From Thermococcus sp. 4557 (GTDB taxonomy: Archaea; Methanobacteriota_B; Thermococci; Thermococcales; Thermococcaceae): a stretch of 64,000 bases of DNA. Each line of letters starts with the position of its first letter. Position 1 is the stretch's first letter. A model generated the notes under the pieces. It was not told where the DNA came from. It did no database searches and saw nothing but the letters and a program-made list of their open reading frames with translations. The translations under genes and the position numbers were made by a program. The DNA is taken from assembly GCF_000221185.1 (NCBI RefSeq), contig NC_015865.1:1240001-1304000 (forward strand), given 5' to 3'. Shown here piece by piece: positions 2,249-35,510 of the stretch.

Positions 2249-2254
2249 TTCCTT

Positions 2255-2563
2255 TCACCTCTTCAGCTCAACACCAATTGCCCTCCTAACTATCTCCTTA
2301 ATCGCCTCTTCGCCGAACCTAGAGCCGGACTTGTCCGGCACCTGAAGGATGATCGGAAGCGTAACCTCGGGTATCTCAACCCTCTGGGCGAACCTCTCAG
2401 TTATGAGTATTATTCCCACGTCGCCCCTCTCGATAAGCTCCCTGAGCTTGTTCCTGAGCCTCTCAACCTCCAGAGGCGTGTCCTCAAAGGAATAAACCTC
2501 ATGGGCGCCGGCGAGCCTGAACCCCAGCGCCGTGTCCTTGTCCCCGAGCACGGCTATCTTCAT
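2255..2563 (-). CDS. atpF: A-type ATP synthase subunit F
   Basis: Central-stalk subunit F, 102 residues, beginning [19 protein letters not shown]. That segment is diagnostic for the Rossmann-like F subunit. The protein sits with D in the rotor stalk and regulates ATPase activity in related enzymes. Its ATG overlaps the atpC stop by 4 nt (ATGA), indicating coupled translation, and it is followed by atpA in the canonical order. Confidence 0.96.
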
Positions 2564-3660: not shown

Positions 3661-3665
3661 CGCCC

Positions 3666-4277
3666 TCACCCGAAGAGAGCCTTGGCGATTTCCGCCCTGA
3701 GCTCGCCTTCAAACCTCTCTATCCTGGCCTCGAAGGTGTTGTCAACCCTAACCGCGCCGTCGGGGGTCTCAACGACGAGGCCGCCTATGGTGCCGACCGG
3801 CTCCCCGAGGCTTACATCGATCTCCCTGCCGAGCCTCTCGCCGAGGGCTTTTCTGAACTCATCGGCCCTCTCTGAGAGGAGCTTCAGAGTTCTCTCGTTG
3901 GAGCGAACGACGACGCTCTCGGAACCGAGCTCCTCAACAGCCTGAACCGTAAGGTCAACGAGCATCGGGAAGTACTCCTCGTCGGGAAGCTCCGCAAGCC
4001 TCTCACGAAGCGCGGTGATGACCTCCTGGATGAGCTCCTCCTGAACGGCGAGCCTCTTCTTCCTGACCTCGAGGCGGGCGTTGGCTACTATCCTCTGCTT
4101 CTCTATCTCTGCCTGGGTCTGGGCCTTCCTCATTATCCACTCGGCCCTGGCCTCGGCCCTCTTCCTCGCTTCCTCCTTGATCTTCTCCGCTTCCTGCTGG
4201 GCCTCACTGAGGATGTACTGTATCTTCTGCTCCGCTTCCCTGTTTATCTCCTGAATGATCAGCTCTGCTCCATCCAT
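3666..4277 (-). CDS. atpE: A-type ATP synthase subunit E
   Basis: Peripheral-stalk subunit E, 203 residues. The N-terminal half is a long charged coiled coil (INREAEQKIQYILSEAQQEA) that pairs with subunit H. The C-terminal half is a globular head ending RAEIAKALFG that binds the top of the A/B hexamer. A strong ribosome site (GGAGGAAGG) precedes ATG 4277. The downstream subunit C frame begins at its stop codon. Confidence 0.97.
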   Translation of the reverse strand: MDGAELIIQEINREAEQKIQYILSEAQQEAEKIKEEARKRAEARAEWIMRKAQTQAEIEKQRIVANARLEVRKKRLAVQEELIQEVITALRERLAELPDEEYFPMLVDLTVQAVEELGSESVVVRSNERTLKLLSERADEFRKALGERLGREIDVSLGEPVGTIGGLVVETPDGAVRVDNTFEARIERFEGELRAEIAKALFG

Positions 4278-4319
4278 CCTCCTTCCTCCTCGCTGCTATA
4301 AAGAAAGTTTTGGACGGAG

Positions 4320-4811
<492 letters not shown>

Positions 4812-4823
4812 TCATGCACCTCC

Positions 4824-6803
4824 TTAAGCTTCAAACTCCAACTCGGAAACTTCTCTTTTTGCCCTGAAGGGCTCGAAGGGTTTACCTTCACCTGAATAGA
4901 ACGTACCGAAAAATTCAACGTACTGGAGACGGAGCGAGTGGACGAACGCTCCGAGGGCGTTGATGGCGACCGAAAACAGCTGGCCGCCGACAAAGAGTAT
5001 GAGACCTATAACTATGCCTATCGGAACGGGGCCTACGCTCACGCCCCAGACCATCTGCACGAGGATGTTGATGACCATCGCTATTCCTGCCGTCGCTAGA
5101 GCCAGCGCCATCAGCCTGGCGTAGCTGAGCCAGCTTCCCACGAAGCCGAAGAAGTCCGAGATTATCAGCAGCACCGCCAGCCCGCCGTTGTTGACTATCT
5201 CCCCTATCGCGAAGAGCACCAGGCCTATTCCAAAGAGGGCCTTGCCCACCATTCCGGCGCTCGGGCTGTTGGTTCCCAGGACAAGAGTCACTATTCCAAG
5301 TATTATGAGCATCCAGGACAGCTGGTCGAGCACAGCCCCCTTCCTGTCGCCGTTCTTGAACTTGACCACGAAGCCGAGGGTGTAGCCGAGGAACAGGTGG
5401 GCTATTCCTATCGCGAGGGCGAGCTGGAGCACCACGAGGGCATCCTGGAAGGTGTCCCAGACGCGCGGAACGGTGAATCCAGCGAGGTCGAGGGCGTTGC
5501 CGAAGTAGCTGCCGAAGATGGCACCCATAATCATGGTGAAGAACGAACTGAGGAGCAGGGTGTAAGAGAACTTGTAGGTGCCGTCGTCGAACTTCCTGTG
5601 CCCCTTGACGAGGAGGGCCGCTATTATGGCTATGATGAGACCATACATGAAGTCGGTGAGCATGAATCCGAAGAAGAACGAGTAGGTGAAGGTTATTATC
5701 GGCGTCGGGTCTATCTCGTCGTACCTGGGAACGCCGTACATCTCGGTGAGCATCTCGAAGGGCCTGGCCCATCCGGGGTTCCTGAGCTTTATCGGAATCT
5801 CGTCGAGCTCCTCCGCACTCGGCTCGCGGACGTTTATGTAGGCCTTGTTCTCGGTGACCCTCTTTATCCCCTCGAGAACCTCCGGCACGTCGGCCCTAGG
5901 GAGCCATCCGGTTAAAGCGAAGGTCATGTTGGTTCTGGCGAGCATCGGCAGCACGGTTGACTTGTCGCGCTCGTTCTCCATCAGCTCCTGGTAGAAGACG
6001 ACGTCGTCGTAGTACTTCTCCGCCAGCATCTCGGCGTCCTTCTTGGCGCTCTCAAGCTCTTCCTCCTTGGCGCGGAGCTTCTCCTCGTAAACCGATATGA
6101 GCTCCCTCGGCGTTCCCTCACCCTCGGGAACCTCGAGCCTCTCGAGGGAGTACTTGGCGAGTATCGGGTTGGCCTTCTCGTAGTCGCGCTTGAGGAAAGC
6201 GAAGACCGCCAGAATCTTGTCCTTGAACTCCTTGGAGACGACGACGGCCCTTCCCTCCGTGGCCTTCTCGACCTCCTCAATGAGGGGCCTGAACTTGTTC
6301 CTGTCAACGGTTCCAACGATTATCTCGAGCATGTCGGTCGATTTGAGGTATGAGACGTCGAGGTTGAGCGCGGAGAGCAGCTCAAGAATCGCGATATCGT
6401 TCTTTATCCTCTCGATCTCGGTCTGGGTGGAGGTTATCTTACCCTCGACGGCCTTTATCTCAGGCTCGACTGTGGCCAGGAACGCCTCAACGTCCTTGAT
6501 GAGCTTCTCCACTCCCTCGTACCGGTACTTCTTCTTCGCCCTCTCACTTGGGAAGATGAACTCCCTTATGCCGCCCCCGGTCTGCTTCTTATACGCCTTG
6601 AGAAAATCGACGAGCCGAGATATGGTTATGCTGTACGAGGCGGCCTTCCTGTGGTACTCGTTCGGCGAGTCCTTCTGTGCCACGTCAACGCTGAGCTCCC
6701 TTATTTCGATCACGCCGTTCTCGTGGAGGTAGGTGAGGAGGCTGTCCTTGTAGCGGTTGAGCGTGATGACCTCTATTTTGACCATCTCTTCAGGCTTGAA
6801 CAT
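4824..6803 (-). CDS. atpI: A-type ATP synthase subunit I (a-subunit stator)
   Basis: Membrane stator subunit, 659 residues, that forms the two ion half-channels next to the K ring. Residues 1 to about 350 are a cytoplasmic coiled-coil arm that anchors the E/H stalks. From about residue 365 there are seven to eight membrane helices. The segment near SFGFVGSWLSYARLMALALA is the most conserved part of the channel. The frame ends KREVSELEFEA. The start at 6803 follows the atpH stop by 2 nt. Confidence 0.97.
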   Translation of the reverse strand: MFKPEEMVKIEVITLNRYKDSLLTYLHENGVIEIRELSVDVAQKDSPNEYHRKAASYSITISRLVDFLKAYKKQTGGGIREFIFPSERAKKKYRYEGVEKLIKDVEAFLATVEPEIKAVEGKITSTQTEIERIKNDIAILELLSALNLDVSYLKSTDMLEIIVGTVDRNKFRPLIEEVEKATEGRAVVVSKEFKDKILAVFAFLKRDYEKANPILAKYSLERLEVPEGEGTPRELISVYEEKLRAKEEELESAKKDAEMLAEKYYDDVVFYQELMENERDKSTVLPMLARTNMTFALTGWLPRADVPEVLEGIKRVTENKAYINVREPSAEELDEIPIKLRNPGWARPFEMLTEMYGVPRYDEIDPTPIITFTYSFFFGFMLTDFMYGLIIAIIAALLVKGHRKFDDGTYKFSYTLLLSSFFTMIMGAIFGSYFGNALDLAGFTVPRVWDTFQDALVVLQLALAIGIAHLFLGYTLGFVVKFKNGDRKGAVLDQLSWMLIILGIVTLVLGTNSPSAGMVGKALFGIGLVLFAIGEIVNNGGLAVLLIISDFFGFVGSWLSYARLMALALATAGIAMVINILVQMVWGVSVGPVPIGIVIGLILFVGGQLFSVAINALGAFVHSLRLQYVEFFGTFYSGEGKPFEPFRAKREVSELEFEA

Positions 6804-6805
6804 CG

Positions 6806-7117
6806 TCAGCTCCCTCTCACGAGTGCTATACCAGCCGAGATGGCCCTCTCGAAGTTGTTGGTGGCCTTCACCTTGAGCTCCTCAATCTCGGCGTTGCCCT
6901 CCTCGAGGACCTTTTTGGCCTCCTCCTCTCCCTCGGCGCGGGCCTTCTCGACGAGGGCTTCCGCCTGAGCCTCAGCTTTCTGTATAATCTCCCTCTCGAG
7001 AAGCTTGGCCTCCTCACGGGCCTTAAGCACTATCTCCCTGGCGTCCTCTTTGGCCTTCTCAATGCGTGCCTCGGCCTGCTTCTCTGCATCAACAATCTGC
7101 TTGATGACGTCCTCCAT
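6806..7117 (-). CDS. atpH: A-type ATP synthase subunit H (peripheral stalk)
   Basis: Short coiled-coil stalk subunit, about 103 residues, beginning MEDVIKQIVDAEKQAEARIEKA. A longer frame from 7156 exists, but ATG 7117 is preceded by GGGGGGC and gives the family start. The charged heptad pattern, rich in Ala, Glu and Lys, runs to about residue 90 and should pair with subunit E. This is the promoter-proximal gene of the ATP synthase operon. Confidence 0.93.
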   Translation of the reverse strand: MEDVIKQIVDAEKQAEARIEKAKEDAREIVLKAREEAKLLEREIIQKAEAQAEALVEKARAEGEEEAKKVLEEGNAEIEELKVKATNNFERAISAGIALVRGS

Positions 7118-7159
7118 GATTAGCCCCCCAATGACCCTGAAAACAGGTTTCCTCACACG

Positions 7160-7195
7160 TCGCTTTTGGCTTCCCTAACCGGTTTAAATAGTTTT
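7160..7195 (-). promoter_or_regulatory. Promoter of the ATP synthase operon
   Basis: On the minus strand an AAAAACTATTTAAACC element (7182-7197) matches an archaeal BRE/TATA box. The expected transcription start is near 7160, about 40 nt before the atpH ATG. No other comparable element lies between atpH and the neighbouring trkA-type gene. Confidence 0.65.
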
Positions 7196-7264
7196 TGGCC
7201 CCCACACCAAAGATATGACGAGGAAGGAACAGAAATGGACATAAAAGTTGAAAAAAATGTCATA

Positions 7265-7957
7265 TTAACTTTCATTGTCGGGTTTTCTCCTCTCGAGTAG
7301 ACCCTTCACGTTGTCCAGTATGCTGTTCTTGGCGAAGACTATGACCTGACCCCTCTCCGGAAGCTTCGTGTCGCCGGACGGGATTATCAGGTTGCCCTTC
7401 TCGTCGTAAACGGCTATCATGAGGGCGTCCCTGGGCAGTTTGAGGTCGCGGACGTACTTGCCAGCTATCTCGCTGTTTTCGTCGATGGTGAAGCGGACTA
7501 TCTCGGCGCCCTCCTTCGGGAAGAGGACGCGGTCAAAACCGGGAGTGACTATGTTCCTGCTTATGTACTCCGCAGCTATCTCCTCGGGACTGATGACGAA
7601 GTCGAAGTAGCGCTTGAGGTCGGTGACCTCCTCGAATATGCGCCTGTTCTTGGGGTTCCCCAGTCTGAGGGAGGTTTTCACCTTGGGATTCAGGTGCTTC
7701 GCCAGTATGCAGGCCAGCAGGTTGGCGTCGTCCTTGCCGGTCAGAGCCGCGAAGGCGTCCGCCTGCTTGATGTTGGCCTCCTCGAGGGTCTTCGGGTCGG
7801 TCGCGTCGCCCTCAATAACCAGGCCGTTGATGAGGAGGGAGAGCTCCTTGGCCCTCGCCTTGTCCATCTCGATTATGGTGACGTCGTGCCCCTCCTCCTC
7901 CAGCATCTTGGCCACGAGGTAGCCGACCCTTCCGGCACCCATTATCACGACGAACAT
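7265..7957 (-). CDS. trkA: TrkA-family potassium channel/transporter regulator (RCK-N and RCK-C)
   Basis: Cytoplasmic nucleotide-sensing regulator of K+ uptake, 230 residues. The N-terminus MFVVIMGAGRVGYLVAKML is a Rossmann NAD-binding glycine motif (GAGRVG). An acidic residue at the end of the second strand (IIEMD) would bind the ribose. Residues from about 140 form a TrkA-C domain (AGKYVRDLKLPRDALMIAVY). The ATG overlaps the secD stop as TGATG, so the gene is coupled to the Sec operon. No membrane TrkH/KtrB partner is in the window. Confidence 0.88.
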   Translation of the reverse strand: MFVVIMGAGRVGYLVAKMLEEEGHDVTIIEMDKARAKELSLLINGLVIEGDATDPKTLEEANIKQADAFAALTGKDDANLLACILAKHLNPKVKTSLRLGNPKNRRIFEEVTDLKRYFDFVISPEEIAAEYISRNIVTPGFDRVLFPKEGAEIVRFTIDENSEIAGKYVRDLKLPRDALMIAVYDEKGNLIIPSGDTKLPERGQVIVFAKNSILDNVKGLLERRKPDNES

Positions 7958-9480
7958 CAGTCCTCACCGAGCAGGTATTTGGCTATTTCAGCGTAGGCCG
8001 GCCTGGTGATGAGGATTCCAATGAGGACGCCGAGTATCGTGGTGAAGGCAAATCCCTTGAGCGTTCCGACGAAGTAAACCAGCAGGAAGCTCATGGCCGC
8101 TATGGTCGTCGCCGCGGATGCGAAGATGACGAAGAACGCCCTTCCCATCCTCCTGAGAACGCTGGCGCGCCTGGTTATCCTCGTGGTCCTCTCGCCGCTT
8201 AGAAGCTCGTCGGTTATGACTATCTGCTGATCGACGCCGGTACCGATCGCCGCGATGATACCCGCGATGCTCGGGAGGTCGAGGTTCCAGTTTATGAGGG
8301 ACGCGAAGCCGAGGATTATTATGACCTCAAAGAGGCTGGTGCTCGCGACTGGTATTGCGATCCTCCAGTTCCGGTAGTGGAAGTACACTATGAGGAGCAC
8401 CGCTATCAGGGCGGCGAGGCCCGCGTAGAGGGCCTGCGTCCTGAAGCCCTCACCGAGGCGCGGGGATATGAACTCCATGCCGACGACGTTGAGCTTGACC
8501 GGGAGCGAACCGCTCTTGAGGACGGTGTAGATGGTGCTGGCCTCCTGCTCGGCGGTGAGTCTGTCCGGGGCGGTTCCAGTTATCTGAACGTCCTGCTGGG
8601 GTTCACCGACCGTGAGACCCTCTCCGAGCGAGTAGGGGCCGTAGAGACCAAGAACCCTGACTATGAGCGCGTGGTCGCTCTCGCCAGGGGCCCTAGGAAC
8701 GTAGCGGACAGTGAGGTTCATTCCCTCCAGCTGGGTCTGCAGGTCCTGCGGGACATCGACGAGAACTATCTTATCCTTGCCCTCAGCGAGTTTGGCTATC
8801 TCATCGGCGCTCTGGTTGGCGTAGGCGACGACGGTTACGTTGAAGGCTTTACCGATCCTCTCCATGAGGGTCGGGGCGTTCGGAGCCTCGGCGTTGAATT
8901 CCGTGCTGTTCATGAGTTTGTAAACCGAGTCAGGCACCACCACCAGGGAGTTGACAGGGGGATCAAGGAACATGTCAACGGGCCAGCCCTTCTTACCGTA
9001 GGCGAGCTCGGCAAATTCCTCGGCGGCGGATTTTGAGATTCTGAACGGAACGGCCCAGCTGTTGTCGGGCTTTATCTGATATATTCCAACGTACTCAACG
9101 TCCTCACCGGTTCCGAACACGGTCCCGGTGAACTCCATGTAGAACACACCCTGGCTCTCGATGACGGACTTTATCTGGTTGGCCTCCTCTGTGGTGCTCA
9201 CGTTAGCGACCTTGACAAGCACTATCTGGTCTCCCTGCGCCTCGACGGTTATGTCCCTAAGTCCAAGGGTGTTGAGCCTCTTTTGCAGTGAATCAACGAC
9301 GAGCTGCATCGTATCACTGTCAACGGGGTGCTCCGTCTGAGCTACGAGGGCAACACCACCGGATATGTCGATTCCATACGTCAGGGGCCTGAGGGCCAGG
9401 GTGGCCACCGAGCCCACGAGGAACAGGATGAGCAGGATTACCCTCCAGTTGAGAAGGAGATTCCTGGTTCTTCTCTTCAT
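7957..9480 (-). CDS. secD: Protein-export membrane protein SecD
   Basis: Accessory Sec translocon subunit that uses the ion gradient to help release exported proteins. It has 507 residues: one N-terminal membrane helix, a large external domain with the P1 signature TYGIDISGGVALVAQTE near residue 35, then five membrane helices from about residue 340. The C-terminal bundle contains IGTGVDQQIVITDELL, matching the conserved SecD helix pattern. It starts in a 4-nt ATGA overlap with secF and stops on the trkA start. Confidence 0.95.
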   Translation of the reverse strand: MKRRTRNLLLNWRVILLILFLVGSVATLALRPLTYGIDISGGVALVAQTEHPVDSDTMQLVVDSLQKRLNTLGLRDITVEAQGDQIVLVKVANVSTTEEANQIKSVIESQGVFYMEFTGTVFGTGEDVEYVGIYQIKPDNSWAVPFRISKSAAEEFAELAYGKKGWPVDMFLDPPVNSLVVVPDSVYKLMNSTEFNAEAPNAPTLMERIGKAFNVTVVAYANQSADEIAKLAEGKDKIVLVDVPQDLQTQLEGMNLTVRYVPRAPGESDHALIVRVLGLYGPYSLGEGLTVGEPQQDVQITGTAPDRLTAEQEASTIYTVLKSGSLPVKLNVVGMEFISPRLGEGFRTQALYAGLAALIAVLLIVYFHYRNWRIAIPVASTSLFEVIIILGFASLINWNLDLPSIAGIIAAIGTGVDQQIVITDELLSGERTTRITRRASVLRRMGRAFFVIFASAATTIAAMSFLLVYFVGTLKGFAFTTILGVLIGILITRPAYAEIAKYLLGED

Positions 9481-10391
9481 TCGCTACCACCCCTTGCCGG
9501 GTTTGAGAGGTACCACTTCAGCACGCCGGCGTTAAGAACCCAGGTGTTCATGAAGTCTGCGAGCAGACCGAAGATGAGGACGATGGCTATGTTGTCGATG
9601 GTCTGGCTGGTGGAGATAATCCAGAGCACGAGCAGAGCACCGAGGGTGGTGGTGCTCATCGTGAATCCAGTGGAGACCGCGGCTAGGTAGGCCTCGTCCA
9701 GAGTGTCCTCCTTTCTTCTAAGGAGCTTGGTGGTCAGGAGGATGTTGCTGTCAACGGTGTAACCTATGAGCATGAGCAGAGCCGCTATCGTGGCCGTTGT
9801 CAGCTCGATGCCGAAGAGGCCCATGAGGGCGACGGCTATTGTCATGTCCGAAAGGGCAGAGAAGATTATAGTCATCGCCGGCACGAGGTTCCTGAAGAAC
9901 AGGAAGACCACCACAGCCATTGCAAGGAACGCGAAGACGAGGGCCCTGATGCCCTGCTGCTGGGCGATTTTACCGAAGGTGGGCTGAACCTCGCTGTGGG
10001 TGTACTCCGCGTTGGGATAGTCGCTCTTCAGTATCTTTATTATCTCCGCGGGATCGGTACCGACGGGAGCGTAAACCCTGATGCCGCTGGTATCGACGCT
10101 GGTGAAGCTCTCGACCCTCACGTCCACTCCCAGCTGAGCGCTCAGGGTCTTGGCGAGCTCATCGGGGTTCGCATCGATTCCATAGGCGGTGACGACCACA
10201 CCACCCTGGAGGTCTATTCCAAGCGTGGGGAAGTTGACCGCGAGCAGAATCAGAGCCGCGAGGAATACCACCAACGGGTACATGATCATCTTTTTGTATT
10301 CCATCTCGGCCAAAAATCCAAGCGTCTTTCGTTTCCTTGCCCTCACGGCATCGCCGGCCGTGGGCTTTGCCTTAGTTTTAGGCTTCGACAT
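9477..10391 (-). CDS. secF: Protein-export membrane protein SecF
   Basis: Partner of SecD, 304 residues. A charged cytoplasmic N-terminus is followed by the first membrane helix at about 35-53, the GIDLQGGVVVTAYGI external motif, and five further helices. These include LIGYTVDSNILLTTKLL, the SecF helix-4 signature. It is the first gene of a secF-secD-trkA operon. A ribosome site GGGTGAAGGT precedes ATG 10391. Confidence 0.95.
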   Translation of the reverse strand: MSKPKTKAKPTAGDAVRARKRKTLGFLAEMEYKKMIMYPLVVFLAALILLAVNFPTLGIDLQGGVVVTAYGIDANPDELAKTLSAQLGVDVRVESFTSVDTSGIRVYAPVGTDPAEIIKILKSDYPNAEYTHSEVQPTFGKIAQQQGIRALVFAFLAMAVVVFLFFRNLVPAMTIIFSALSDMTIAVALMGLFGIELTTATIAALLMLIGYTVDSNILLTTKLLRRKEDTLDEAYLAAVSTGFTMSTTTLGALLVLWIISTSQTIDNIAIVLIFGLLADFMNTWVLNAGVLKWYLSNPARGGSE

Positions 10392-25980: not shown

Positions 25981-26277
25981 TCAGTCCTTCGAATCGGGCC
26001 CGAGGTCCACATCCACGTCCTCGAACTGCTCCTCGTCGATGTATATCATGGGAATCTTAAGCTTCCGGAGAAACTCCACCAGCCGTTTCTCGCGCCGCTC
26101 CATCATCTCAATCCTGTGCCTCAGGCTTGCGTTCTCTATGGCGAGCCTGTTGGCCTCGTCCACCTTGAGGTTCAGCTGCATCCTCAGCTCTACAAGCTCA
26201 TCCTCCAGCTCCCGGAGCGAGCGCTCCAGCCGGTCGATTTCCTCCAGGTACTCCCGACAGAGGCGTTCCCTTATCAT
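25981..26277 (-). CDS. Small coiled-coil protein, unknown
   Basis: 98 residues. Residues about 5-65 form a nearly uninterrupted coiled coil (EIDRLERSLRELEDELVELR). The acidic C-terminal tail (DEEQFEDVDVDLGPDSKD) follows a short hydrophobic strand IPMIYIDEE. No ribosome site precedes ATG 26277. Instead a C/D box sRNA occupies the sequence immediately upstream, and both probably come from one promoter. Function unknown. Confidence 0.65.
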   Translation of the reverse strand: MIRERLCREYLEEIDRLERSLRELEDELVELRMQLNLKVDEANRLAIENASLRHRIEMMERREKRLVEFLRKLKIPMIYIDEEQFEDVDVDLGPDSKD

Positions 26278-26337
26278 CTCGGTCAGCCCCGCGAAACCTC
26301 CTCACCGATCAGGGGGCTCCAGACTCATCATCCCAAT
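26278..26337 (-). ncRNA. C/D box guide sRNA upstream of the coiled-coil gene
   Basis: On the minus strand: C box ATGATGA (26331-26325), a 12-nt guide, D' box CTGA (26312-26309), a 4-nt spacer, C' box TGAGGA (26304-26299), a second 12-nt guide, and D box CTGA (26286-26283). The 49-nt core and two 12-nt guides are canonical for archaeal 2'-O-methylation guides. A TATA-like CCTTTTAACGTC (26360-26371) is placed to start transcription at about 26340. The targets would contain GGGGCTCCAGAC and CCCCGCGAAACC; I could not place them. Confidence 0.75.
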
Positions 26338-26411
26338 CACCCGAGGTAGGCGGAGGACGTTAAAAGGTTTCACCCGCTAAAGCTTTAAGGCGTATTCTCC
26401 TACGACCCCCC

Positions 26412-27194
26412 ATGCGGTCAAAAATGTACCTCGCGGCAATACTGGTGGCAGCGATGCTCGTAACTTCTGGCTGCCTCGGAAGCACGTCAACCCTGGAAGC
26501 CACCGTGGAGAAAACCACGACCCTGGAAAAAACCAGAACGGTCACCGAAACCATCACCGTGACAGAAACCAAGTACATTGAGAACCGCAGCGTTGAAATG
26601 GAGCTCAGAAAGAACCTCACTGCCTGCATCGAGAACCTCCGGCTCCTGAACTCGACGTTGGCCCGGACGAGTGAGAGCCTTGAGGAGCTCAGCGCGAAGT
26701 ACCGCGACTGCCTGCTGGAGGGGTCAAAAAAGGAGGAGAACGTTCCTCCTGCGAAACTGCTGGTGGATGACGCGTATTATAGGAGCCTCATCGAGGACAT
26801 ACGCGGTGCGCGAGAGAGCGTTTACGTCACCATGTTCCTCATGAAGTACGACCCCACCGACAGCTACGACCACGCCAACGACCTGATAAGGGCGCTGGTG
26901 GAGGCCAGGAAGAGGGGCGTGAGCGTCCACGTGATACTCGAAAACGGCATCGAGGACAACAGTGCCACCTACGACTACCTCCGCTCCAACGGGGTCGATG
27001 TGGTCTTTGATTCCTCCTCGGTAACCCTCCACACAAAGATGGTCGTGATAGACGGCAGGGTGGTTTACGTCGGAAGCCACAACTGGAGCGAGGCCGCGCT
27101 GGACTGGAATCACGAGGTGAGCGTTAGAATCGAGTCCCAGGAGATTGCGGAGTCGCTCTTGGAGTACTTCGAGGAGATTAAAAGGGGGCATTAG
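26412..27194 (+). CDS. Phospholipase D-like lipoprotein (single HKD motif)
   Basis: 260 residues. The N-terminus is a lipoprotein signal with lipobox-like VTSGC (Cys20), then a Thr-rich linker and a short coiled coil. The catalytic domain has one HKD motif, HTKMVVIDGRVVYVGSHNWSEAA, which suggests a homodimer like bacterial Nuc endonucleases. It could cut nucleic acids or phospholipids outside the cell. A TATA-like GCTTTAAGGCG at 26382-26392 implies a leaderless start at 26412. Confidence 0.85.
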   Translation: MRSKMYLAAILVAAMLVTSGCLGSTSTLEATVEKTTTLEKTRTVTETITVTETKYIENRSVEMELRKNLTACIENLRLLNSTLARTSESLEELSAKYRDCLLEGSKKEENVPPAKLLVDDAYYRSLIEDIRGARESVYVTMFLMKYDPTDSYDHANDLIRALVEARKRGVSVHVILENGIEDNSATYDYLRSNGVDVVFDSSSVTLHTKMVVIDGRVVYVGSHNWSEAALDWNHEVSVRIESQEIAESLLEYFEEIKRGH

Positions 27195-27198
27195 ATCG

Positions 27199-27327
27199 AT
27201 GAAAATGCTGGGTGGATTGAAGAGGGCATACTGGCGCTGGCGCTCCCGCTGCCCGTTCGTGAGGAAGCTCGAGGAGTGGAGGATGAAGAGGAAGGCGCGG
27301 GAGTTCAGGGTGGAGGTGAAGAAATAG
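27199..27327 (+). CDS. Small basic protein downstream of the PLD-like gene
   Basis: 42 residues, about a third Arg or Lys (MKMLGGLKRAYWRWRSRCPF), with three Trp. It begins 4 nt after the PLD-like stop, with AAGGGGG about 14 nt upstream, so it may be translated from the same message. A nucleic-acid-binding or membrane-surface role would fit the charge, but nothing identifies it. It could also be chance. Confidence 0.4.
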   Translation: MKMLGGLKRAYWRWRSRCPFVRKLEEWRMKRKAREFRVEVKK

Positions 27328-27439
27328 GTTTTGCTGTTTCCCAAACTCTTTTCCACAAGACATTATTTTGATACACCTCCCACTGAGGCTTAAAAAGGGA
27401 GTGCTTCATGTCTCCCCATGCAGTTTTCCATTTTTTGTA

Positions 27440-27490
27440 TACTATTTTTAATAGTAAGTAAAATGTGAATAGAAAAGTCTTTTAAGTTCC
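27440..27490 (+). promoter_or_regulatory. Promoter of the large secreted protein with upstream 17-bp inverted repeat
   Basis: TACTATT-TTT-AATAGTA (27440-27456) is a perfect inverted repeat. A TATA-like GTCTTTTAAGTTCC (27477-27490) follows 20 bp later, and translation starts at 27521 after GGTGA. An element upstream of TATA is the usual place for an archaeal activator. Confidence 0.5.
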
Positions 27491-27520
27491 GATTTTTGAT
27501 AGTACTTTGGTGAAATCTTA

Positions 27521-30500
27521 ATGAGGAAAGCAGTAGGAGTGTTGCTGATAACCCTCCTGCTGGGATCGATAGTAGCGGCGGCAGGGAGTACGGTCTACGC
27601 CACCACCGTTGAAGCCCAGGACGACCCGTACGAGAAATTCTGGGAAATCCTCAACAAGGAAGCCGAACTCGTGGTCCAATTCAATGCTACCGGGAACATC
27701 GTCCTCGCCAGAGAACTGATTCAAAACTCTCGCATTGGTGCAGAGAATGCAGCCAACATTTCAGCTTTAATCTGGCAGGCTCTGGAAGAACTGAAGGCTT
27801 CCGGCGTGAAGACGCACTACACTGCGGAAGAATTGAGGGAAATAGCTCGGAACATCAGCCGGAACGGTCTCCCCCAAGAGACGGTAGAGGCTCTAAAGAC
27901 CCAAGGCTGGACTGATGAGCAGATTCAAGCATTGGAAGATTACATTGCCAAGAACGCTGGTGAGATTAATGAGGACTTCAACATGACGGCTTTCCTCGAG
28001 GAGTTTTCCATGGCCTTCATTGATGTAGCGTTCAAATACAACGAGTACGAAACATGGACGCTAAAGAAATGGAAATGGATTCATTCTGCCGAATTCCAGC
28101 AGACCCGTGACAATGAGATAATAAACCCAACACTCGCCAAAGGCTGGCTTGAATTCTATAAAGCTTACTCCTCCAGGGATTACAAGGGAATGGAGAAGAA
28201 AGCTCGTCAGTTGAGAGATTCAATGTACGAACTGCTGACTGGTGAAAAAATATCCGGTAATCTGACCTTCCTCAAAGATGAGAAAGTTGTAACCCAAACA
28301 GGAATGATCAAGAGTGTCAACCATACCACAAACGGTTCCTTAGTCTTCACAGTGCTAGTTACTATTCCAGATGGCGATTATCTAATCTGGAATGCTACTA
28401 CTTATTACTGGCACAATGCATTAAATGCCTACGAATTGCTAGATAATGTTCTTACATTGGCAACCGCAATAGCGTCTGGAAACGAAAATTGGGAAACTGA
28501 AAGTATTTTACACCAGAAAGTTGCCGAATTAAAAGATTCTCTAAAGGTCGTAATAGTCAAAAGTGAGAGTTATAGAACTAGGAAAAAAGATGAACCAATA
28601 AAACCCACAGAGCCGATATATCCAATAAACCCGAAACTCCCCGTACAGCCAGTATATGCAGGTTCTACAGAAGAGCCCACAATATCAACAGAACCCTTTA
28701 CCAGCATAGTCACAATAACCCCTGCCGATGAAATCACCACAATAGCCCTGAATCCAGAAGACAGCCAGAGAATCTTAGAGATAAACCATATAACGATCAC
28801 TCCAGTCGAAGTATCAACAGACTATGCAACATACAAGGTCTCAATGGACATCACGGCCAGTAAGGCAAGTGCCGTGAACGTGAAGGTGAAAATCGAAGGA
28901 ACAGAGCTTGAGTACTCCAAAAACATCGGAGCTATAAACAACGGGGAAACCATCACAGTTGAGAGTACAATCAGCGGAAGAGTTTATGGGGATTACGAAG
29001 TGGAAGTCAGCGGAAAGATTAAGGTGACGTATCAGTTCATCACGGAATATCGCACCAACTCAGAAAGCGGCTTAAATCTAGATGATACTTCCTCAAAATA
29101 TTCAACACGCCAAGCCGTTGAGGAGTACTCCTCAACGATAAAGCTTCAATACGACCCCACAAAGAACATAGACGTTGAAGTCACAACAATCCCTCAGAGC
29201 AGAAATATTGAAGAGGGTGACTCCGTCCAATTCAAAATAAAAGTTAGCAACCTCAATCCCTTCAGCGTTACTGGCAACTACTCCCTGAAAGTTGAAGTAC
29301 CGTACATGGTCGAAAATAACCTCATAGAAAGTAAATTCAAAGAGTTTACCGGCTCTCTTTCGCTTCAGGGATTCGACGACTCAACTGTGTACGTTGGAAG
29401 TGTAACCTATCCCAAGCATGGAACTTACAAGTACGAGGGCTACTTTAAGGTGGGACAGTACTACAAGAAGTTCAACGGTACCATAGAAGTCAAACCACGT
29501 CCAGATGATGACTCCCCAAGCATCAAAATCACCCCACTGGACTGGCCATCAACTGCCCGCAGAGGAAATACCGTCCGCTTTAAGGTACAGCTCGACAGCA
29601 CGTACAAAGATGACAGAGAGGCAAAGATAGAACTGATAATAGACGACGAACTTTCTCCAGTCCACACGGTTGAGACGTCTGTTAAAGGAGGGTCCAGCAC
29701 CATGGTGACGCTCTCATGGAACGTTCCGAGCGCCTTTCCTATAGGTGAGCACAGTGTAAAAGTGAAGGTCATGTCAAGACACGTTAATTCAAACGATCCA
29801 TGGGACCTCGAAGCCAGCGAGACAAAGTCAATTACAATCCAGAACCTTAACGACAGGTTCGGTATTAAGTTGGTCGCTTACCCGACTGAGCTTGAGGGTG
29901 GCGGAGAAGTGTATTTGCAAGTGAAGGCGTGGAATTACGATGGATCAATGATTCCAGTTAGAGGATTCATTGAAATCAATGGGAAACGGGAAAATATTGA
30001 CGCTAAAATTCCGATCAGCGCTAACGGTGATCCCATAATAACACTCAGACGGAACATCGTTGGAGTCGGCGTTCACACGATCAAAGTATTCCTCGACAAT
30101 CACGATGGCGAACCTAACGGAGCAGGAGAAGAGCACTGGAGCGAAGCGACAGTGGAAGTGAAGTCAATGAACGGAACAGAACTCAAACAAGTGAGCTTTG
30201 AGTGCGATAATCCTAAATTCAACTGGAACGGAATAGAATACAAGGCCACATTAGTGTGCAAGGCATTTGTCTATAATCCCACTCAAGAAAATGTCTTCTT
30301 GAACGCTGTGAGTGTTAGCGAGTGGCATACTGATAACTCAGACTTTACGCGATCTCTTGGCTCCTCGTGGACAGTTGAGTATCCCACCGTAATACAGAGC
30401 TCTGAAACTGCTACGATAATCTTCAAGAACACAGCACACACAGGACTCATCACGCTTGAAAGAGACCTGTTTGGAGATTATATCTCAATATCGCTGAAGT

Positions 30501-30748
30501 ATGTGGTGTCCCCACAAAATGGAAACGACATTATATTCACAGGCATTGACACAATAAACATAGGGCAAGATAACAAGGACGTGATAGTAGACGTTGGAAC
30601 CAATGTTATACTTGTGGGAGCAGACGTCAAAGCAGGGATCACAATATTGAAACTGGCACGTAATGGTGAGGTGGTGAGTGCTTTCAAAAATTCATGGCCC
30701 TACCTAGTGAGCTTCTTTAGATGGGCGTGGCCAAAGCTCCACAATTGA
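27521..30748 (+). CDS. Large secreted multidomain protein, putative polymorphic-toxin-type carrier
   Basis: 1075 residues. A signal peptide (RKAVGVLLITLLLGSIVAAAG) is followed by a helical N-terminal region to about 300 and a proline-rich linker near 356-380 (EPIKPTEPIYPINP). At least four beta-sandwich, Ig/CARDB-like units then run to about 880. The C-terminal about 212 residues begin at a junction (NGAGEEHWSEATVEVKS, about 867-883). They contain a Cys pair 17 residues apart and end in an aromatic tail, WPYLVSFFRWAWPKLHN. The same junction sequence starts two orphan C-terminal modules downstream. I recognise no catalytic motif. Secretion and modular build are seen; a toxin or recognition role is inferred. 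Confidence 0.8.
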   Translation: MRKAVGVLLITLLLGSIVAAAGSTVYATTVEAQDDPYEKFWEILNKEAELVVQFNATGNIVLARELIQNSRIGAENAANISALIWQALEELKASGVKTHYTAEELREIARNISRNGLPQETVEALKTQGWTDEQIQALEDYIAKNAGEINEDFNMTAFLEEFSMAFIDVAFKYNEYETWTLKKWKWIHSAEFQQTRDNEIINPTLAKGWLEFYKAYSSRDYKGMEKKARQLRDSMYELLTGEKISGNLTFLKDEKVVTQTGMIKSVNHTTNGSLVFTVLVTIPDGDYLIWNATTYYWHNALNAYELLDNVLTLATAIASGNENWETESILHQKVAELKDSLKVVIVKSESYRTRKKDEPIKPTEPIYPINPKLPVQPVYAGSTEEPTISTEPFTSIVTITPADEITTIALNPEDSQRILEINHITITPVEVSTDYATYKVSMDITASKASAVNVKVKIEGTELEYSKNIGAINNGETITVESTISGRVYGDYEVEVSGKIKVTYQFITEYRTNSESGLNLDDTSSKYSTRQAVEEYSSTIKLQYDPTKNIDVEVTTIPQSRNIEEGDSVQFKIKVSNLNPFSVTGNYSLKVEVPYMVENNLIESKFKEFTGSLSLQGFDDSTVYVGSVTYPKHGTYKYEGYFKVGQYYKKFNGTIEVKPRPDDDSPSIKITPLDWPSTARRGNTVRFKVQLDSTYKDDREAKIELIIDDELSPVHTVETSVKGGSSTMVTLSWNVPSAFPIGEHSVKVKVMSRHVNSNDPWDLEASETKSITIQNLNDRFGIKLVAYPTELEGGGEVYLQVKAWNYDGSMIPVRGFIEINGKRENIDAKIPISANGDPIITLRRNIVGVGVHTIKVFLDNHDGEPNGAGEEHWSEATVEVKSMNGTELKQVSFECDNPKFNWNGIEYKATLVCKAFVYNPTQENVFLNAVSVSEWHTDNSDFTRSLGSSWTVEYPTVIQSSETATIIFKNTAHTGLITLERDLFGDYISISLKYVVSPQNGNDIIFTGIDTINIGQDNKDVIVDVGTNVILVGADVKAGITILKLARNGEVVSAFKNSWPYLVSFFRWAWPKLHN

Positions 30749-30762
30749 GGGAGGTGATGAAT

Positions 30763-31284
30763 ATGTTAGACGAAAAACTACTAATCCTTTTCTTATTTGT
30801 TTTTTCCGGTATTTATGGGACATTTATATATCAAGGAAAGACTACAAAGGGATTTAAAATATCTATTACCATTCTGCTTTCATTATACATAGCAGGAAAA
30901 ATACTCTCAGAATCTGATTCCAAGCTATGGGGATTATTAGTACCTGTATTAGTGTTCTATCTCACGAGTATTGGGTACTACTCATTAATGGATATCAACG
31001 GACGTCTTGATGAATTCCTTTCAGGAAGAAAGAGACAAGAATGGAACCCGAGGAATATTTTCGCTCTAACTCTGTTAATCCTTTTGTTTGAGATTGTTCC
31101 ATTGATTGCGGTATACCTTACCACTCACAGTGTTTTCCTTTCTATTACAGTTGGACTTGGCACAGGCCTTTTCTTTTTCACTTTGCCGAATTTTGACAAA
31201 ATGACGTTTAAGTTTGTGTTTAACATCTACACAATCTTAACAGTTGTGACGACAGTATTACTCGTTTCAGGATTATGTGTGTAG
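30763..31284 (+). CDS. Small membrane protein after the full-length tip, candidate immunity protein A
   Basis: 173 residues with about five or six hydrophobic helices (for example ILFLFVFSGIYGTFIYQ). The start is ATG 30763 with GAGGTGA upstream, 14 nt after the stop of the 1075-residue gene, so it is probably cotranscribed. AT-rich codon use matches the island. It has no known family. Its position directly after the variable tip is that of an immunity protein, and a multi-spanning membrane protein would suit a membrane-active tip. Confidence 0.65.
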   Translation: MLDEKLLILFLFVFSGIYGTFIYQGKTTKGFKISITILLSLYIAGKILSESDSKLWGLLVPVLVFYLTSIGYYSLMDINGRLDEFLSGRKRQEWNPRNIFALTLLILLFEIVPLIAVYLTTHSVFLSITVGLGTGLFFFTLPNFDKMTFKFVFNIYTILTVVTTVLLVSGLCV

Positions 31285-31298
31285 TGGAGGTGATGTGA

Positions 31299-31646
31299 GT
31301 GCTAGCAGTTGAGGGTAGATTTGTAATTCCCGCTTTTATGTTTTTTATCTCAGTAGCAAGCACGTTTTATCTTGCAAAGTATCTAATCCTGCAATTTATA
31401 ATCACCGCGTATATTGTTGGATTCCTCGCCGTGTATTGGAAGAAAAGGTTATCTCCCAAGGAGAAAACCATGATAGTCATTGTAGTTAGTTTTCCACTGT
31501 ATTTTCTTCCAGCATGGGCGGTGACGGATAATATAACTCTCGCCCTCTCACTTGGAGCATTGTGGGACATTTCCACAGGCTTAGGAATTCATACAACACT
31601 AACAAAAAGACCAGATGGGAATCAAACATGGCCAAGTAGTAGCTAG
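31299..31646 (+). CDS. Small membrane protein, second candidate partner of the first tip
   Basis: 115 residues from a GTG start preceded by GGAGGTGATGT, 14 nt after the previous gene. Three to four hydrophobic segments (IPAFMFFISVASTFYLAKYL and IVIVVSFPLYFLPAWA). No recognised family. The same composition and tight spacing suggest one transcription unit with the secreted protein. Confidence 0.55.
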   Translation: MLAVEGRFVIPAFMFFISVASTFYLAKYLILQFIITAYIVGFLAVYWKKRLSPKEKTMIVIVVSFPLYFLPAWAVTDNITLALSLGALWDISTGLGIHTTLTKRPDGNQTWPSSS

Positions 31647-31676
31647 TGTCCTTTAGCCTCTAGTTTTTAAACTATT

Positions 31677-32390
31677 GACAGAGAACCAAACGAAGCAGGA
31701 GAAGAGCACTGGAGCGAGGTGAAAGTGGAAGTAAAGTCATGGAAAGCAGATTTGAAGTTAGAATGCGATGATGAAGTTGTGCTGGGTGAAAATGATGTAG
31801 ACGACCTTGACTGTACTTTATACTTATTCCGAACTAACCCAGAAGAATCGGTGCAAGTCAGAATATCAGGAATCGACGTTGGGGGAGCAAAAGTCTGGCC
31901 AAGCGAGTTTAAAGGACTCACATTGTCAAAGGATACTCTTAGAGTGACTCCGAATGATCCAGATGACGAGATCCACATCAAGATTACGATAGATGAGAAC
32001 TTTGCAGAGTTTTACTTTGGGATCGATCCTCGCTTCCCATGGCACTCTTATGTGGATAAACTTGCCATGGAGCAACCTTGGGAGATAGTGATACACTTTG
32101 AGAATGCGCCACCAATAAGCACGACATTCCAGATACTAAAGAACAGCGGCACCACGATTGAAGACGCAGTTGAATACGGCGGTTCGGGAACATTTGTAGT
32201 GACAGAGATACTCGAAAAAGCAGGATATATAACAACCGAGGCAACAGGACCTGGATCACTGGCAGTTGTTGGATCTAAACTATTCGGATATGTTGGATTA
32301 CTCCTCTTCGTATCAGATATAGCGGAGGAAGCATATTTTTATGGCTGGAGACAGCCAAGAGATTTCGATAACGATGGTTTTGTGGGGTGA
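31677..32390 (+). pseudogene. Orphan C-terminal module 2 (no start codon or ribosome site of its own)
   Basis: The frame opens after TAA at 31668 and reads EPNEAGEEHWSEVKVEVKSW. A 57-bp stretch (31683-31739) matches the internal junction of the full-length gene (30110-30166) at 51 of 57 positions. A Cys-pair domain follows, then a wholly different tip with a hydrophobic helix (VGSKLFGYVGLLLFVSDIA), ending at TGA 32390. A GTG at 31719 exists but lies inside the junction without a ribosome site. It looks like a silent cassette that could be exchanged into the long gene by recombination. Not decayed: about 235 open codons. Confidence 0.7.
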
Positions 32391-32394
32391 TACC

Positions 32395-32916
32395 ATGGAC
32401 GAACTCCGCGTTCATAACATTCTGACTTTTTATCTTCCTCTTTTGATTTTGACTAGTTTTATGTACGAATTCTTGAATAAGAACTCTAGGGCGCTGATTT
32501 ATGTTGTGGGATATTTGATAGCATATCTGGCAATTAGACTTGAAATTCATCACTACACCCACAAATGGAGTGCACATAGAGATCCGGAGGTTATCAAAAT
32601 TCTTTTGATTTATAACCTGCTTGCAGTGGGTTTTCTATTACCTACTCTTCTTGCGTATTCAACAAAAGCAACTCTTATCAGGAATATCATGATTTACATT
32701 ATTGTTGTACTTGTCCTGTATGTGCCAATTTCCAAAATGATCGTTAGATTATTAGGACGTGGGTTATTTATCTTATCCTTTGGATCTTCGCTTGTAATCT
32801 TCATAATCACGCAAAACATTCTAGAACCCACGATATTCGCTCTCCTTAGTTTATGGACATACTTGGTACTGAAACATGATTTAGTAGCTTATACCCAAGA
32901 AAGGAGCGTTAGCTAA
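32395..32916 (+). CDS. Small membrane protein after module 2, candidate immunity protein B
   Basis: 173 residues and five to six hydrophobic helices (VLVLYVPISKMIVRLLGRGL is one region). ATG 32395 lies 5 nt after the stop of module 2, with GGGTGAT as ribosome site. An in-frame ATG at 32341 is inside module 2 and unlikely. The island's AT-rich codon use applies. It has no recognised family. Being kept intact beside a silent cassette fits an immunity gene that must move with its tip. Confidence 0.6.
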   Translation: MDELRVHNILTFYLPLLILTSFMYEFLNKNSRALIYVVGYLIAYLAIRLEIHHYTHKWSAHRDPEVIKILLIYNLLAVGFLLPTLLAYSTKATLIRNIMIYIIVVLVLYVPISKMIVRLLGRGLFILSFGSSLVIFIITQNILEPTIFALLSLWTYLVLKHDLVAYTQERSVS

Positions 32917-32954
32917 AACATAAGCTCTCCTCAAAAGACTGTGACCAAAACTAG

Positions 32955-33682
32955 ATGAACAAGAGGAGAACACTGGAGCGAGGTGAAAGTGGAAGTGAAA
33001 ACTGACGACAAACTTAAACAGGTAACATCGGACTGCAATCCACTGTACTCCAAATATAACATGGGAGACTATGAAGCAACTCTCACTTGCCGACTAACAA
33101 TATACAATGGATACAATTAAAAGTAACGGGAGACATTGTTTCAAGCATAAACGCCTCGATATTAAACAGATATCTGCAACTCCAACCAGGAAGCACCTCT
33201 CCAGTGATCAGTTACATTGATCCCAAAACAATACCCGCCAAAGGTTACGCCACCATAACTTCCACCGCACACTTCAAAATACCAAAACCCGATATCTTTG
33301 TAATTGGAGACATATTCCCATATTGGGAAGACGCATAGAATGATATTCAAGTGGAGGGGATTTATGGAGCAAGGGTTCCAGTAAAAATAATTCATGACGT
33401 GCCTTTTGATAAACTCGGGATTCGGCGCTTCACTCTTCAAAGCAGTACCTACGTGGAAGTAGACCACATAGCAGTAGTTGCAGACATTGCTGCCGATACA
33501 TACTTAACGTACAAACTTGGATCAAAAGTTCAGCCTATTGCTAATATCAAGTTTATCAAAGATGCTCTCAATAAGCTCCACCAGAAGTCAAGGAGAAGGT
33601 AAAACCAATAATCGGACAGATAAGTGTCAATTGGCTTGCTAATTGGATGAAAGAGTACGCTATAACATGGTGGAGGGGATGA
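32955..33682 (+). pseudogene. Orphan C-terminal module 3, decayed by frameshifts and a stop
   Basis: It begins with the junction (GEHWSEVKVEVK, 32964-32999), then LKQVTSDCNPLYSKYNMG, close to the pre-tip domain of the full-length gene including both cysteines. The first frame stops at about 33118. Homology resumes in another frame (from about 33090), which has TAG at 33336-33338 and stops at 33602. A third frame then gives SVNWLANWMKEYAITWWRG and TGA at 33680-33682. At least two shifts and one internal stop mean it is broken as it stands. Confidence 0.65.
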
Positions 33683-34410
33683 TAGATGTCGGAAAGGGTG
33701 CCCTTCAAGGGGATATGGAAGTCTCTCTTTTTATTTATCTCTTTAGTCTCTTACAGTTAGGAATTGCAGTTCTCTTGCATCATGAAGGTGCTCATTCAAC
33801 CAAAGTTCTGGGATTGCTGACAATGCCTGTAATTCTAATCCTGTTTTTCTTAGTATACGTCGGGGATGATCCCAAGTTTGCAGGGTTCTTCTTTTATTGG
33901 CTAGGTTTTTTGATGGTCGCAAGCATAAAAGCATCACTTCCTGTTAGGATACTGATTTTTGTCGGTTTGCCGGCATTCTGGTTTTTCGTGTATTTAGATT
34001 TAAGGAACGTACGCTGGACTTTGCTCTTGGAAAGGGTTTTCAATATGGGTAAAGTCGCCTCTTTGCTTCTTGCGATAATAGCCATCGTAAGCCTTGTGGG
34101 GATTAATTACAAACTGTTCGTCATCTCAGAGGCATCTATGTATAGGATTTTCCTCATTATCTGTGAAGTAATAGTATTTGTAGTCCTTTACAAATTAGCT
34201 AGCTCACAAAATGAGAGCACTAAGAAGAAAATAATCAAACTCACACCGTGGGTTTATATATTCTTGTACATCCCATTAGTTCCGACTACAGTGGACCTTT
34301 GGGCAGGCCTTTTACTGCTGATTGTCGGCCCCATTGCATGGGCACTTCTCTTGACACTTGTGATGATGACATCACTAAGAACAAAAGACGTCGAAGGAGG
34401 CGGAACATGA
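33679..34410 (+). CDS. Membrane protein after module 3, candidate immunity protein C
   Basis: About 243 residues with seven or so hydrophobic helices. The start is uncertain. ATG 33679 overlaps the module-3 stop (ATGA). ATG 33715 is in the same frame. ATG 33686 has the best ribosome site (GGAGGGG) but is in another frame, and its 24-codon peptide hits a stop at 33760, so the 5' end may be frameshifted. A middle segment (RILIFVGLPAFWFFVYLDLRN) resembles one in the gene at 35590-35988, marking them as paralogues. Confidence 0.55.
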   Translation: MIDVGKGALQGDMEVSLFIYLFSLLQLGIAVLLHHEGAHSTKVLGLLTMPVILILFFLVYVGDDPKFAGFFFYWLGFLMVASIKASLPVRILIFVGLPAFWFFVYLDLRNVRWTLLLERVFNMGKVASLLLAIIAIVSLVGINYKLFVISEASMYRIFLIICEVIVFVVLYKLASSQNESTKKKIIKLTPWVYIFLYIPLVPTTVDLWAGLLLLIVGPIAWALLLTLVMMTSLRTKDVEGGGT

Positions 34411-34922
34411 AGGGACTGCTTAGATACATTCCAGCTGTTATCGGCCTGCTTTTTCTGGCTTATTTATTTCACACCGGCGACTATCACTCTGAAACTGCCT
34501 ACCCGTTGCTTCAGCTGAACCTGTATTTAACGGCACTGGTTATAGTGCTTCCATGGTTGGAAGATGAGCGTTTTGGATTTGAAGTGAAAGTCTTTGCGCC
34601 CTTATGGTTGCCGATAGCAGCGGTATTGGCTGGGATGGAGTTCTTGGGCGGTCTTGCAGCAATTTTGTGGTTGACATGGCTATTCCTACCACTCTTCAGG
34701 ATTGATAGTGTGCTTATCTTTCTTAGGAAATTAACGGAGAATCTAAATCTGCGAAAGAATCCAGTGAGGGCGCTAATAATAGTGTTAGCACATCCCTTGT
34801 TAATTGTAGTGTGGTATCATGCAATTTTTGGAGTACAGGCAGTTGTTCTAATGGCAATATATGTTATCTATGTCATTCCCATAGAGTTTAGGAAGTCTAG
34901 AGATACTAAAGATAAAGAGTAG
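34407..34922 (+). CDS. Membrane protein, second partner after module 3
   Basis: 171 residues, five to six hydrophobic helices (GLLRYIPAVIGLLFLAYLF near the start). The ATG overlaps the preceding stop by 4 nt (ATGA) and has AAGGAGG upstream, so the pair is coupled. Two membrane genes after a tip mirror the pair after the full-length gene. It has weak resemblance to the decayed gene at 35028-35510 (a short helix, then an Arg-rich loop, then a helix). No known family. Confidence 0.6.
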   Translation: MKGLLRYIPAVIGLLFLAYLFHTGDYHSETAYPLLQLNLYLTALVIVLPWLEDERFGFEVKVFAPLWLPIAAVLAGMEFLGGLAAILWLTWLFLPLFRIDSVLIFLRKLTENLNLRKNPVRALIIVLAHPLLIVVWYHAIFGVQAVVLMAIYVIYVIPIEFRKSRDTKDKE

Positions 34923-34926
34923 GGGG

Positions 34927-35025
34927 TTGCTAACTGCAGGTCTGTTGGTACTAAATCTCCACGACTGGCTCTTTGGACCAAGACCAAATACCGGTGTAGA
35001 CAATAACAATGTAGTGGGGGGATAA
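34927..35025 (+). pseudogene. Remnant of a fourth tip (last about 32 codons)
   Basis: An open stretch LLTAGLLVLNLHDWLFGPRPNTGVDNNN ends at TAA 35023-35025 with no start of its own. It resembles the end of module 2 (GLLLFVSDIAEEAYFYGWRQPRDFDNDGFVG): a hydrophobic helix, an aromatic/Arg/Pro turn, then an Asp/Asn-rich end. It is followed directly by a ribosome site and a membrane-protein start, as the other tips are. It is short, so chance similarity cannot be excluded. Confidence 0.4.
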
Positions 35026-35027
35026 TT

Positions 35028-35510
35028 ATGAGAGGTGCAATTACAAAAGGTGTAGTGGTTATTGTCACTGCCATTTCAATTATCTTTACTTTTTGGTGGG
35101 GAGAAATTACAAACAGCCAATATTACTACACCTTGTTATATTTTGGAGCCTAGCCTTTGGAATATTGTTCCGGTCTACTACTTGGGAGAAATTCTTTGAA
35201 AAGACAACGTTCATTCCGTACTGAATTACTATTGCAAACTTTGCAGGGGCGTGTCTTGGAAGTCCCATCTTGTGGCTCCTCGTCCTGTTTACCCCATGGC
35301 TTTTAATAGACAAAACGTTCACAATGTGGGAGATTGTGCTAAGTAGGCTCAGGATTACCCCAACTAGAAAGACACGTGCCTTCATGTTCACATTTTTGCC
35401 CTCCGTACTGGCAATCATAATTGATGGGGTTAATATCGGCAGTTTGTATCTGCAAGCCATCGGTATAACATACTCAGGAATGCTTATCCTGGAAATTTCT
35501 CATCAATGAT
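35028..35510 (+). pseudogene. Decayed membrane protein after tip remnant 4
   Basis: ATG 35028 with GGGGGGAT upstream opens a frame of 41 codons (MRGAITKGVVVIVTAISIIF) that stops at 35151-35153. Membrane-helix coding potential continues in another frame up to 35509 (WLLVLFTPWLLIDKTFTMW). A coherent protein would need at least one frame change. It resembles weakly the gene at 34407-34922. It is best read as a degraded immunity-type gene. Confidence 0.45.

Follow-up and report, generated by a model that had tools for sequence, protein, structure and literature searches.

The locus lies in the closed 2.01-Mb genome of a member of the Thermococcales, Thermococcus sp. 4557, and was analysed within a window of 64,000 nt (the whole stretch of DNA under study), to which all coordinates refer. 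Between about 27.5 and 36.0 kb of the window, a low-GC island (GC about 41% vs 57%) adjoins the gene for histidyl-tRNA synthetase. A 1075-aa surface-type protein comes first in the island and is followed by small membrane genes, all of them co-directed. Immediately 5' of the island, a lipoprotein-like protein of the phospholipase-D (HKD) type was assigned by eye from its sequence (26412-27194). Rfam and tRNA scans of the region gave no match, and a promoter and terminator scan, the models of which are bacterial and unsuited to archaea, gave no excess over shuffled sequences. The large gene contains one copy of a 62-nt repeat (30110), termed junction core in the following; two further copies mark where module 2 (31683) and module 3 (32947) begin. 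The features are as follows.

27521-30748, plus strand: large surface protein of 1075 aa, consisting of a conserved body and the attached tip 1, with a hydrophobic signal-like N-terminus and a VARTIG arCOG07710-type organisation.
30110-30171, plus strand: junction core copy 1, inside the large gene and in frame, EPNGAGEEHWSEATVEVKS; 62-nt repeat D1, conservation peak ending 30 nt past TGG.
30763-31284, plus strand: partner 1a, 5 TM, behind tip 1; family in 7 genomes, 6 behind tip 1.
31299-31646, plus strand: partner 1b, 3 TM, GTG start.
31671-32390, plus strand: module 2 tip, a start-less open frame with a predicted Ig-like sandwich and a hydrophobic helical tail, ending in DNDGFVG.
31683-31744, plus strand: junction core copy 2, the start of module 2, containing GTG 31719 and GTG 31725.
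31692-32956, plus strand: inserted unit of 1264 bp that is absent from the related genome G014; its ends are approximate within a 43-nt core overlap.
32384-32391, plus strand: GGGGTGAT, which serves partner 2 as ribosome site and is made up of the last Gly codon and the stop of the tip.
32395-32916, plus strand: partner 2, a multi-helix membrane protein of 173 aa with a confident helical model and no PDB relative.
32947-33008, plus strand: junction core copy 3, the start of module 3.
32959-33602, plus strand: module 3 tip, broken by a frame change near 33120, an in-frame TAG at 33336-33338 and a change near 33600.
33643-34410, plus strand: partner 3, an intact membrane protein behind the broken tip.

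Further downstream lies a remnant of a fourth tip, comprising its final 46 codons and ending in DNNNVVGG (34885-35025), after which pieces of partner genes occur (35015-35509).

The island belongs to VARTIG, a type of hypervariable island described previously (Makarova 2021, PMC8416519). It shares with VARTIG (arCOG07710/arCOG14200, PMC8416519) a large secreted protein, putatively Ig-type, in first position, a variable C-terminal tip, smaller downstream homologues, membrane partner genes, a horizontally variable island and a C-terminal DNNxxxGG-like motif. The co-directed run is opened by a protein of more than 500 aa with a signal peptide, as judged by eye (27521-30748), and the smaller tip homologues with membrane partners are modules 2 and 3. 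Several Ig-like domains may be present: Pfam matches in the body were sub-threshold only, and the tip was modelled as an Ig-like sandwich with generic matches. Hypervariability of the C-terminus was seen in G000 and G017, where bodies have a nucleotide identity of about 0.7-0.9 and tips mostly of 0.2-0.4, with the break at the core. Matches were obtained in 39 of 94 Thermococcales genomes, and those of the genome-contig search came from Thermococcaceae alone. A plasmid or virus as carrier of the cassettes was considered and rejected, with no relatives found among plasmids or viral contigs.

The preliminary description had presented module 2 as about 235 open codons with neither a start codon nor a ribosome site. 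The open frame was borne out and spans 239 codons, or 237 when counted from the D-R-E-P-N junction, up to the stop TGA at 32388-32390, and no in-frame ATG, GTG or TTG lies upstream of the junction. At island composition, 239 open codons would arise by chance with a probability of about 3e-7, and a chance open frame was dropped as an explanation. The earliest in-frame start candidates are GTG 31719 and GTG 31725, both within the conserved junction. A Shine-Dalgarno-like GAGGTGA of 7 nt (31716-31722) overlaps the first and lies 2 nt from the second, so the absence of a ribosome site had been worded slightly too strongly. Given a spacing of 4-6 nt in 12 of the 13 strong ribosome sites elsewhere in the window, however, the claim is probably right, and module 2 would probably be without a functional site.

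Translation of the orphan tip in place from GTG 31725 (or 31719), giving a separate protein without signal peptide on which selection acts, is quite improbable. GAGGTGA stands directly before GTG 31725 and is in mild excess in orphan cores (16 of 28, as against 5 of 19 fused cores), and tip dN/dS is uniform across orphan and fused contexts. However, the excess is not significant (Fisher p 0.07), the spacing is 2 nt instead of 4-6 nt, the same codons are needed by the fused protein, and a signal peptide would be missing from an Ig-type domain that is exported and has two conserved cysteines. A sequencing error by which module 2 would be joined to the upstream gene is likewise unlikely because G014 repeats the layout of upstream gene and start-less junction. 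Among 29 orphan junctions in the order, 16 are open for at least 214 codons, 10 of these without any upstream in-frame start, and the intact start-less tip is therefore recurrent and not an accident of this genome. Broken tips lie behind about half of the orphan junctions.

As soon as module 2 is compared with related islands, it appears as an exchangeable unit. G014 carries the same island, with a large protein that is 86% identical, and there module 1 is directly followed by module 3. Window positions 26003-31735 align with 1893-7638 of G014 and positions 32957-34905 with 7596-9544; the two alignments share 43 nt of G014 at the core, which is present in a single copy in G014 and in two copies flanking 1264 bp here. 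A sequence tail matching that behind partner 2 occurs in G002 and G023, again downstream of partner 2. The D-R-E-P-N variant to the left of module 2 occurs to the left of module 3 in G014 and G037, and on grounds of parsimony this placement favours a gain of module 2 here over its loss in G014.

Joints at the core were also found elsewhere. In G023, the body is joined straight to tip 2, without module 1, and the joint lies in the core; altogether, at least 32 of about 62 island comparisons, which are not independent of each other, join there. Conservation across the junctions is highest between about 60 nt before and 29 nt after the core TGG and then collapses, with a drop from 0.93 to about 0.5 within 30 nt after the TGG. 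Pairwise profiles show tips that are common to different bodies as well as similar bodies with different tips. The conserved joining stretch of about 30-90 nt encodes (DNYDGKPNGKGE)EHWSEVKVEV, and its frame is equal in all copies, so that recombination between copies can put a spare tip on a body. This state is carried by relatives: G011 and G007 form an orphan/fused pair for tip 2, and for tip 3 the spare and loaded states are represented by G071, G037, G014 and the window against G047. No recombinase was seen, and homologous recombination through the core would be the simplest mechanism. A second conserved stretch within Ig tips (LTPTNMQEDLTITI...ELANYYFG) forms a joint in locus L049 (oriented) at about 8088 and 9017, which may mean that exchange takes place inside tips as well. 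From the core onwards, modules 3-4 of G014 and G071 (L059 and L063) are about 98% identical, which suggests a recent transfer.

Tip 2 was found fused in frame at the end of a 1097-aa frame in G002, which belongs to another genus (89% identical), and at the end of a 1128-aa frame in G023 (87% identical). In G007, a tip 2 of 77% identity sits on a broken body, and G011 and G063 carry orphan, frameshifted copies; several relatives are draft or metagenome assemblies, so single frameshifts in them may be errors. The dS of tip 2 to G002 is 0.39, whereas alanyl-tRNA synthetase (AlaRS) is saturated for the same genome pair, and therefore the tip moved between genera. To G023, the dS of tip 2 is 0.41 and that of AlaRS 0.45, though the bodies are only 42% identical.

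A comparison of the dN/dS of the tip with its homologues, as proposed beforehand, revealed constraint at the protein level. The branch leading to module 2 carries 22 synonymous codon changes against 10 replacements, and no stop (dN/dS 0.13-0.16), while about 64 replacements and 4 stops are expected of a wholly neutral branch, and its neutral share is at most about 12%. Hence, either silencing was recent, or selection on the protein persists through re-loading or translation in place. The earlier proposal that the integrity of the frame comes from selection through exchange or from recent arrival is supported by this result, and both alternatives fit. A raised dN/dS of orphan over fused tips was sought as a sign of silence and was not found; as the values are the same, the data do not choose between recent silencing and persisting selection. 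A value of 0.65 for tip 3 of G014 and G071 was set aside, as it stems mostly from codons before the core.

Module 3, the tip of which is intact in G014, G071 and G054, has at least three lesions in the tip here and a partner gene that is still open, and its decay may be what longer silence does. An unlikely alternative would regard module 2 in the same way, as a recently arrived or demoted leftover that is untranslated, functionless and decaying, with an intact frame inherited from an expressed past. The broken neighbouring module 3, the share of orphan junctions with broken tips, the frameshifted orphan tips of G011 and G063 and the up to about 12% of the branch that may be neutral point in this direction. 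However, the 10 of 16 intact orphans without an upstream start come from many genomes, the partners remain intact and constrained, and the recurrence of orphan/fused pairs points to a renewed use of spares.

The partner gene had been described as directly following the tip with a good ribosome site, which holds except that the gap is 4 nt and not 5, with the ATG of partner 2 at 32395. Partner 2 stands immediately behind the tip at all six tip 2 loci, and tip 2 was never found without it. In turn, the family of partner 2 is intact at 11 loci, of which four have an intact tip 2, two a frameshifted one and five none. Tips 1, 2 and 3 are each paired with a different partner family, and close relatives of partner 3 sit behind tip 3. 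Partners are intact and constrained. A partner without its tip, yet never a tip without its partner, is an immunity-like pattern that would be expected of immunity genes, and partner 2 might protect against kin bearing tip 2. The partner 2 of G002 (L048) is 60% identical, against 89% for the tip, yet its last 27 residues are nearly identical, and exchange inside the unit of tip and partner is a likely cause of this pattern.

Tip and partner also overlap at the level of the ribosome site. Among tips of the DNN type (with a DNNxxxGG-like end), the partner starts 1-6 nt past the stop in 37 of 37 cases, and in 26 of these 37 the last Gly codon or codons together with the stop form the Shine-Dalgarno sequence of the partner. 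Because of this overlap, the last Gly of DNNxxxGG, a proposed sorting motif, is on sequence grounds at least partly a nucleotide-level constraint. In tips ending in IIGD, the ribosome site of the partner is placed after the stop.

Structural models gave a first idea of what tip and partner might do. For tip 2, an Ig-like sandwich was predicted at residues 24-155 (mostly pLDDT 75-91), followed by a tail of two long helices of low confidence (below pLDDT 50), and hydropathy supported one membrane-spanning stretch. Comparison of the model with known structures yielded generic Ig-like matches only, of the adhesion and complement type. The model of partner 2 is confident (pLDDT 86) and shows six long helices in a bundle. 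No relatives of tip or partner were found in a PDB sequence search, and the partner 2 model was also without a PDB match. No toxin domain was detected in Pfam, NCBIfam, PADLOC or PDB searches, and assignment to a known toxin or defence family was given up for lack of a match. If the tip acts at the membrane, its pairing with a membrane partner would be comparable to the ionophore toxins of contact-dependent inhibition (CDI; PMC11630599), and a toxin/immunity reading of tip 2 and partner 2 could be proposed.

A different function, which concerns what the cassettes do and not the silent-cassette mechanism, seems rather doubtful. In this reading, the cassettes would diversify an adhesin or a surface for recognition (self/non-self or complement-like), with the partner as a membrane anchor, receptor or export factor instead of an immunity protein. 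The Ig-like tip model with its generic adhesion and complement-type matches and the lack of a toxin domain in the searches are consistent with such a role, and two of the three hypotheses put forward by the VARTIG authors correspond to it. However, persistence without a tip, as seen for partner 2 at 5 of 11 loci and for partner 3 here, is unexpected of a dedicated anchor or receptor, and having a separate partner family for each of tips 1, 2 and 3 also argues against it.

The claim that module 2 is an intact silent cassette with its own partner was strengthened by the fused tips in relatives, the empty site of G014, the exchange between genera and the protein-constrained branch. With a probability of roughly 60%, module 2 represents a C-terminal tip kept in reserve and probably untranslated, which occupies the second position of a VARTIG cassette array together with its cognate membrane partner. 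The comparisons show that a unit of core, tip, partner and tail is inserted, removed and re-ordered by joining at the core. The large surface protein ends with the first unit, many later units being start-less, and presumably no tip but the first is displayed. In each spare unit, the partner would still be made because its ribosome site is part of the 3' end of the tip. It may neutralise its tip when this is presented by kin, similar to an immunity protein, and the tip is proposed to act at the membrane via its hydrophobic tail. Intact spare tips would persist by frequent exchange and re-loading, or by recent arrival.

Similar arrangements have been reported from bacteria. In orphan cdiA-CT/cdiI modules of CDI and the 'silent cassettes' of Rhs (Poole et al. 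2011, PMC3150448), a start-less C-terminal fragment is likewise followed by an expressible partner, and loading onto the main gene by recombination at a boundary motif was proposed (PMC3150448); this motif is VENN in CDI, whereas EHWSEVxVEV is found here. Unlike CDI and Rhs, the present system is archaeal, has a putative Ig-type body, is without CdiB or YD repeats and combines no recognised toxin with a membrane partner, and no sequence relation to CDI/Rhs modules was found. The MafB-CT silent cassettes of Neisseria with MafI (PMC4287609) are also start-less C-terminal cassettes, each with a partner and fused in other strains, but belong to different protein families, and one MafB toxin is a demonstrated nuclease. 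CDI ionophore toxins (PMC11630599) resemble tip 2 in combining a separate domain with hydrophobic helices and have very variable cognate immunity proteins; they contain a five-helix domain, whereas two helices were predicted here with low confidence. The layout of polymorphic toxins (CDI/Rhs/Maf) is thus present, with a variable C-terminus, a partner directly downstream and start-less orphans with a common boundary motif. However, the locus was not filed as a polymorphic toxin system because a recognisable toxin domain was not found.

According to the VARTIG authors, recombination could fall anywhere within a stretch of about 600 nt; they could not place the site and observed no such events inside loci, treated the small downstream tips as genes and found no toxin domain (PMC8416519). 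In contrast to that paper, the joint is narrowed here to a core that was seen in both the empty and the occupied state, many of the small tips are start-less, and the final GG overlaps the ribosome site of the partner. Four points are new beyond the 2021 VARTIG paper (PMC8416519): the exchange core and its empty site, the lack of starts in many small tips, the pattern of partners outliving their tips and the ribosome-site overlap. This overlap also provides a simpler account of the terminal GG, which is part of the proposed sorting signal. Together, the exchange core, the empty/occupied pair, the intact start-less spares and the partners that outlive their tips make the polymorphic-toxin hypothesis directly testable, and the Thermococcales include genetically tractable species. 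It is possible, and put forward tentatively, that these islands constitute a polymorphic system of archaea, used as a weapon or for recognition. Its membrane-acting Ig-type tips would be stored without starts, exchanged between genera and loaded onto a surface protein at the core, and the partners, translated from ribosome sites that lie within the silent tips, would serve as a standing immunity repertoire.
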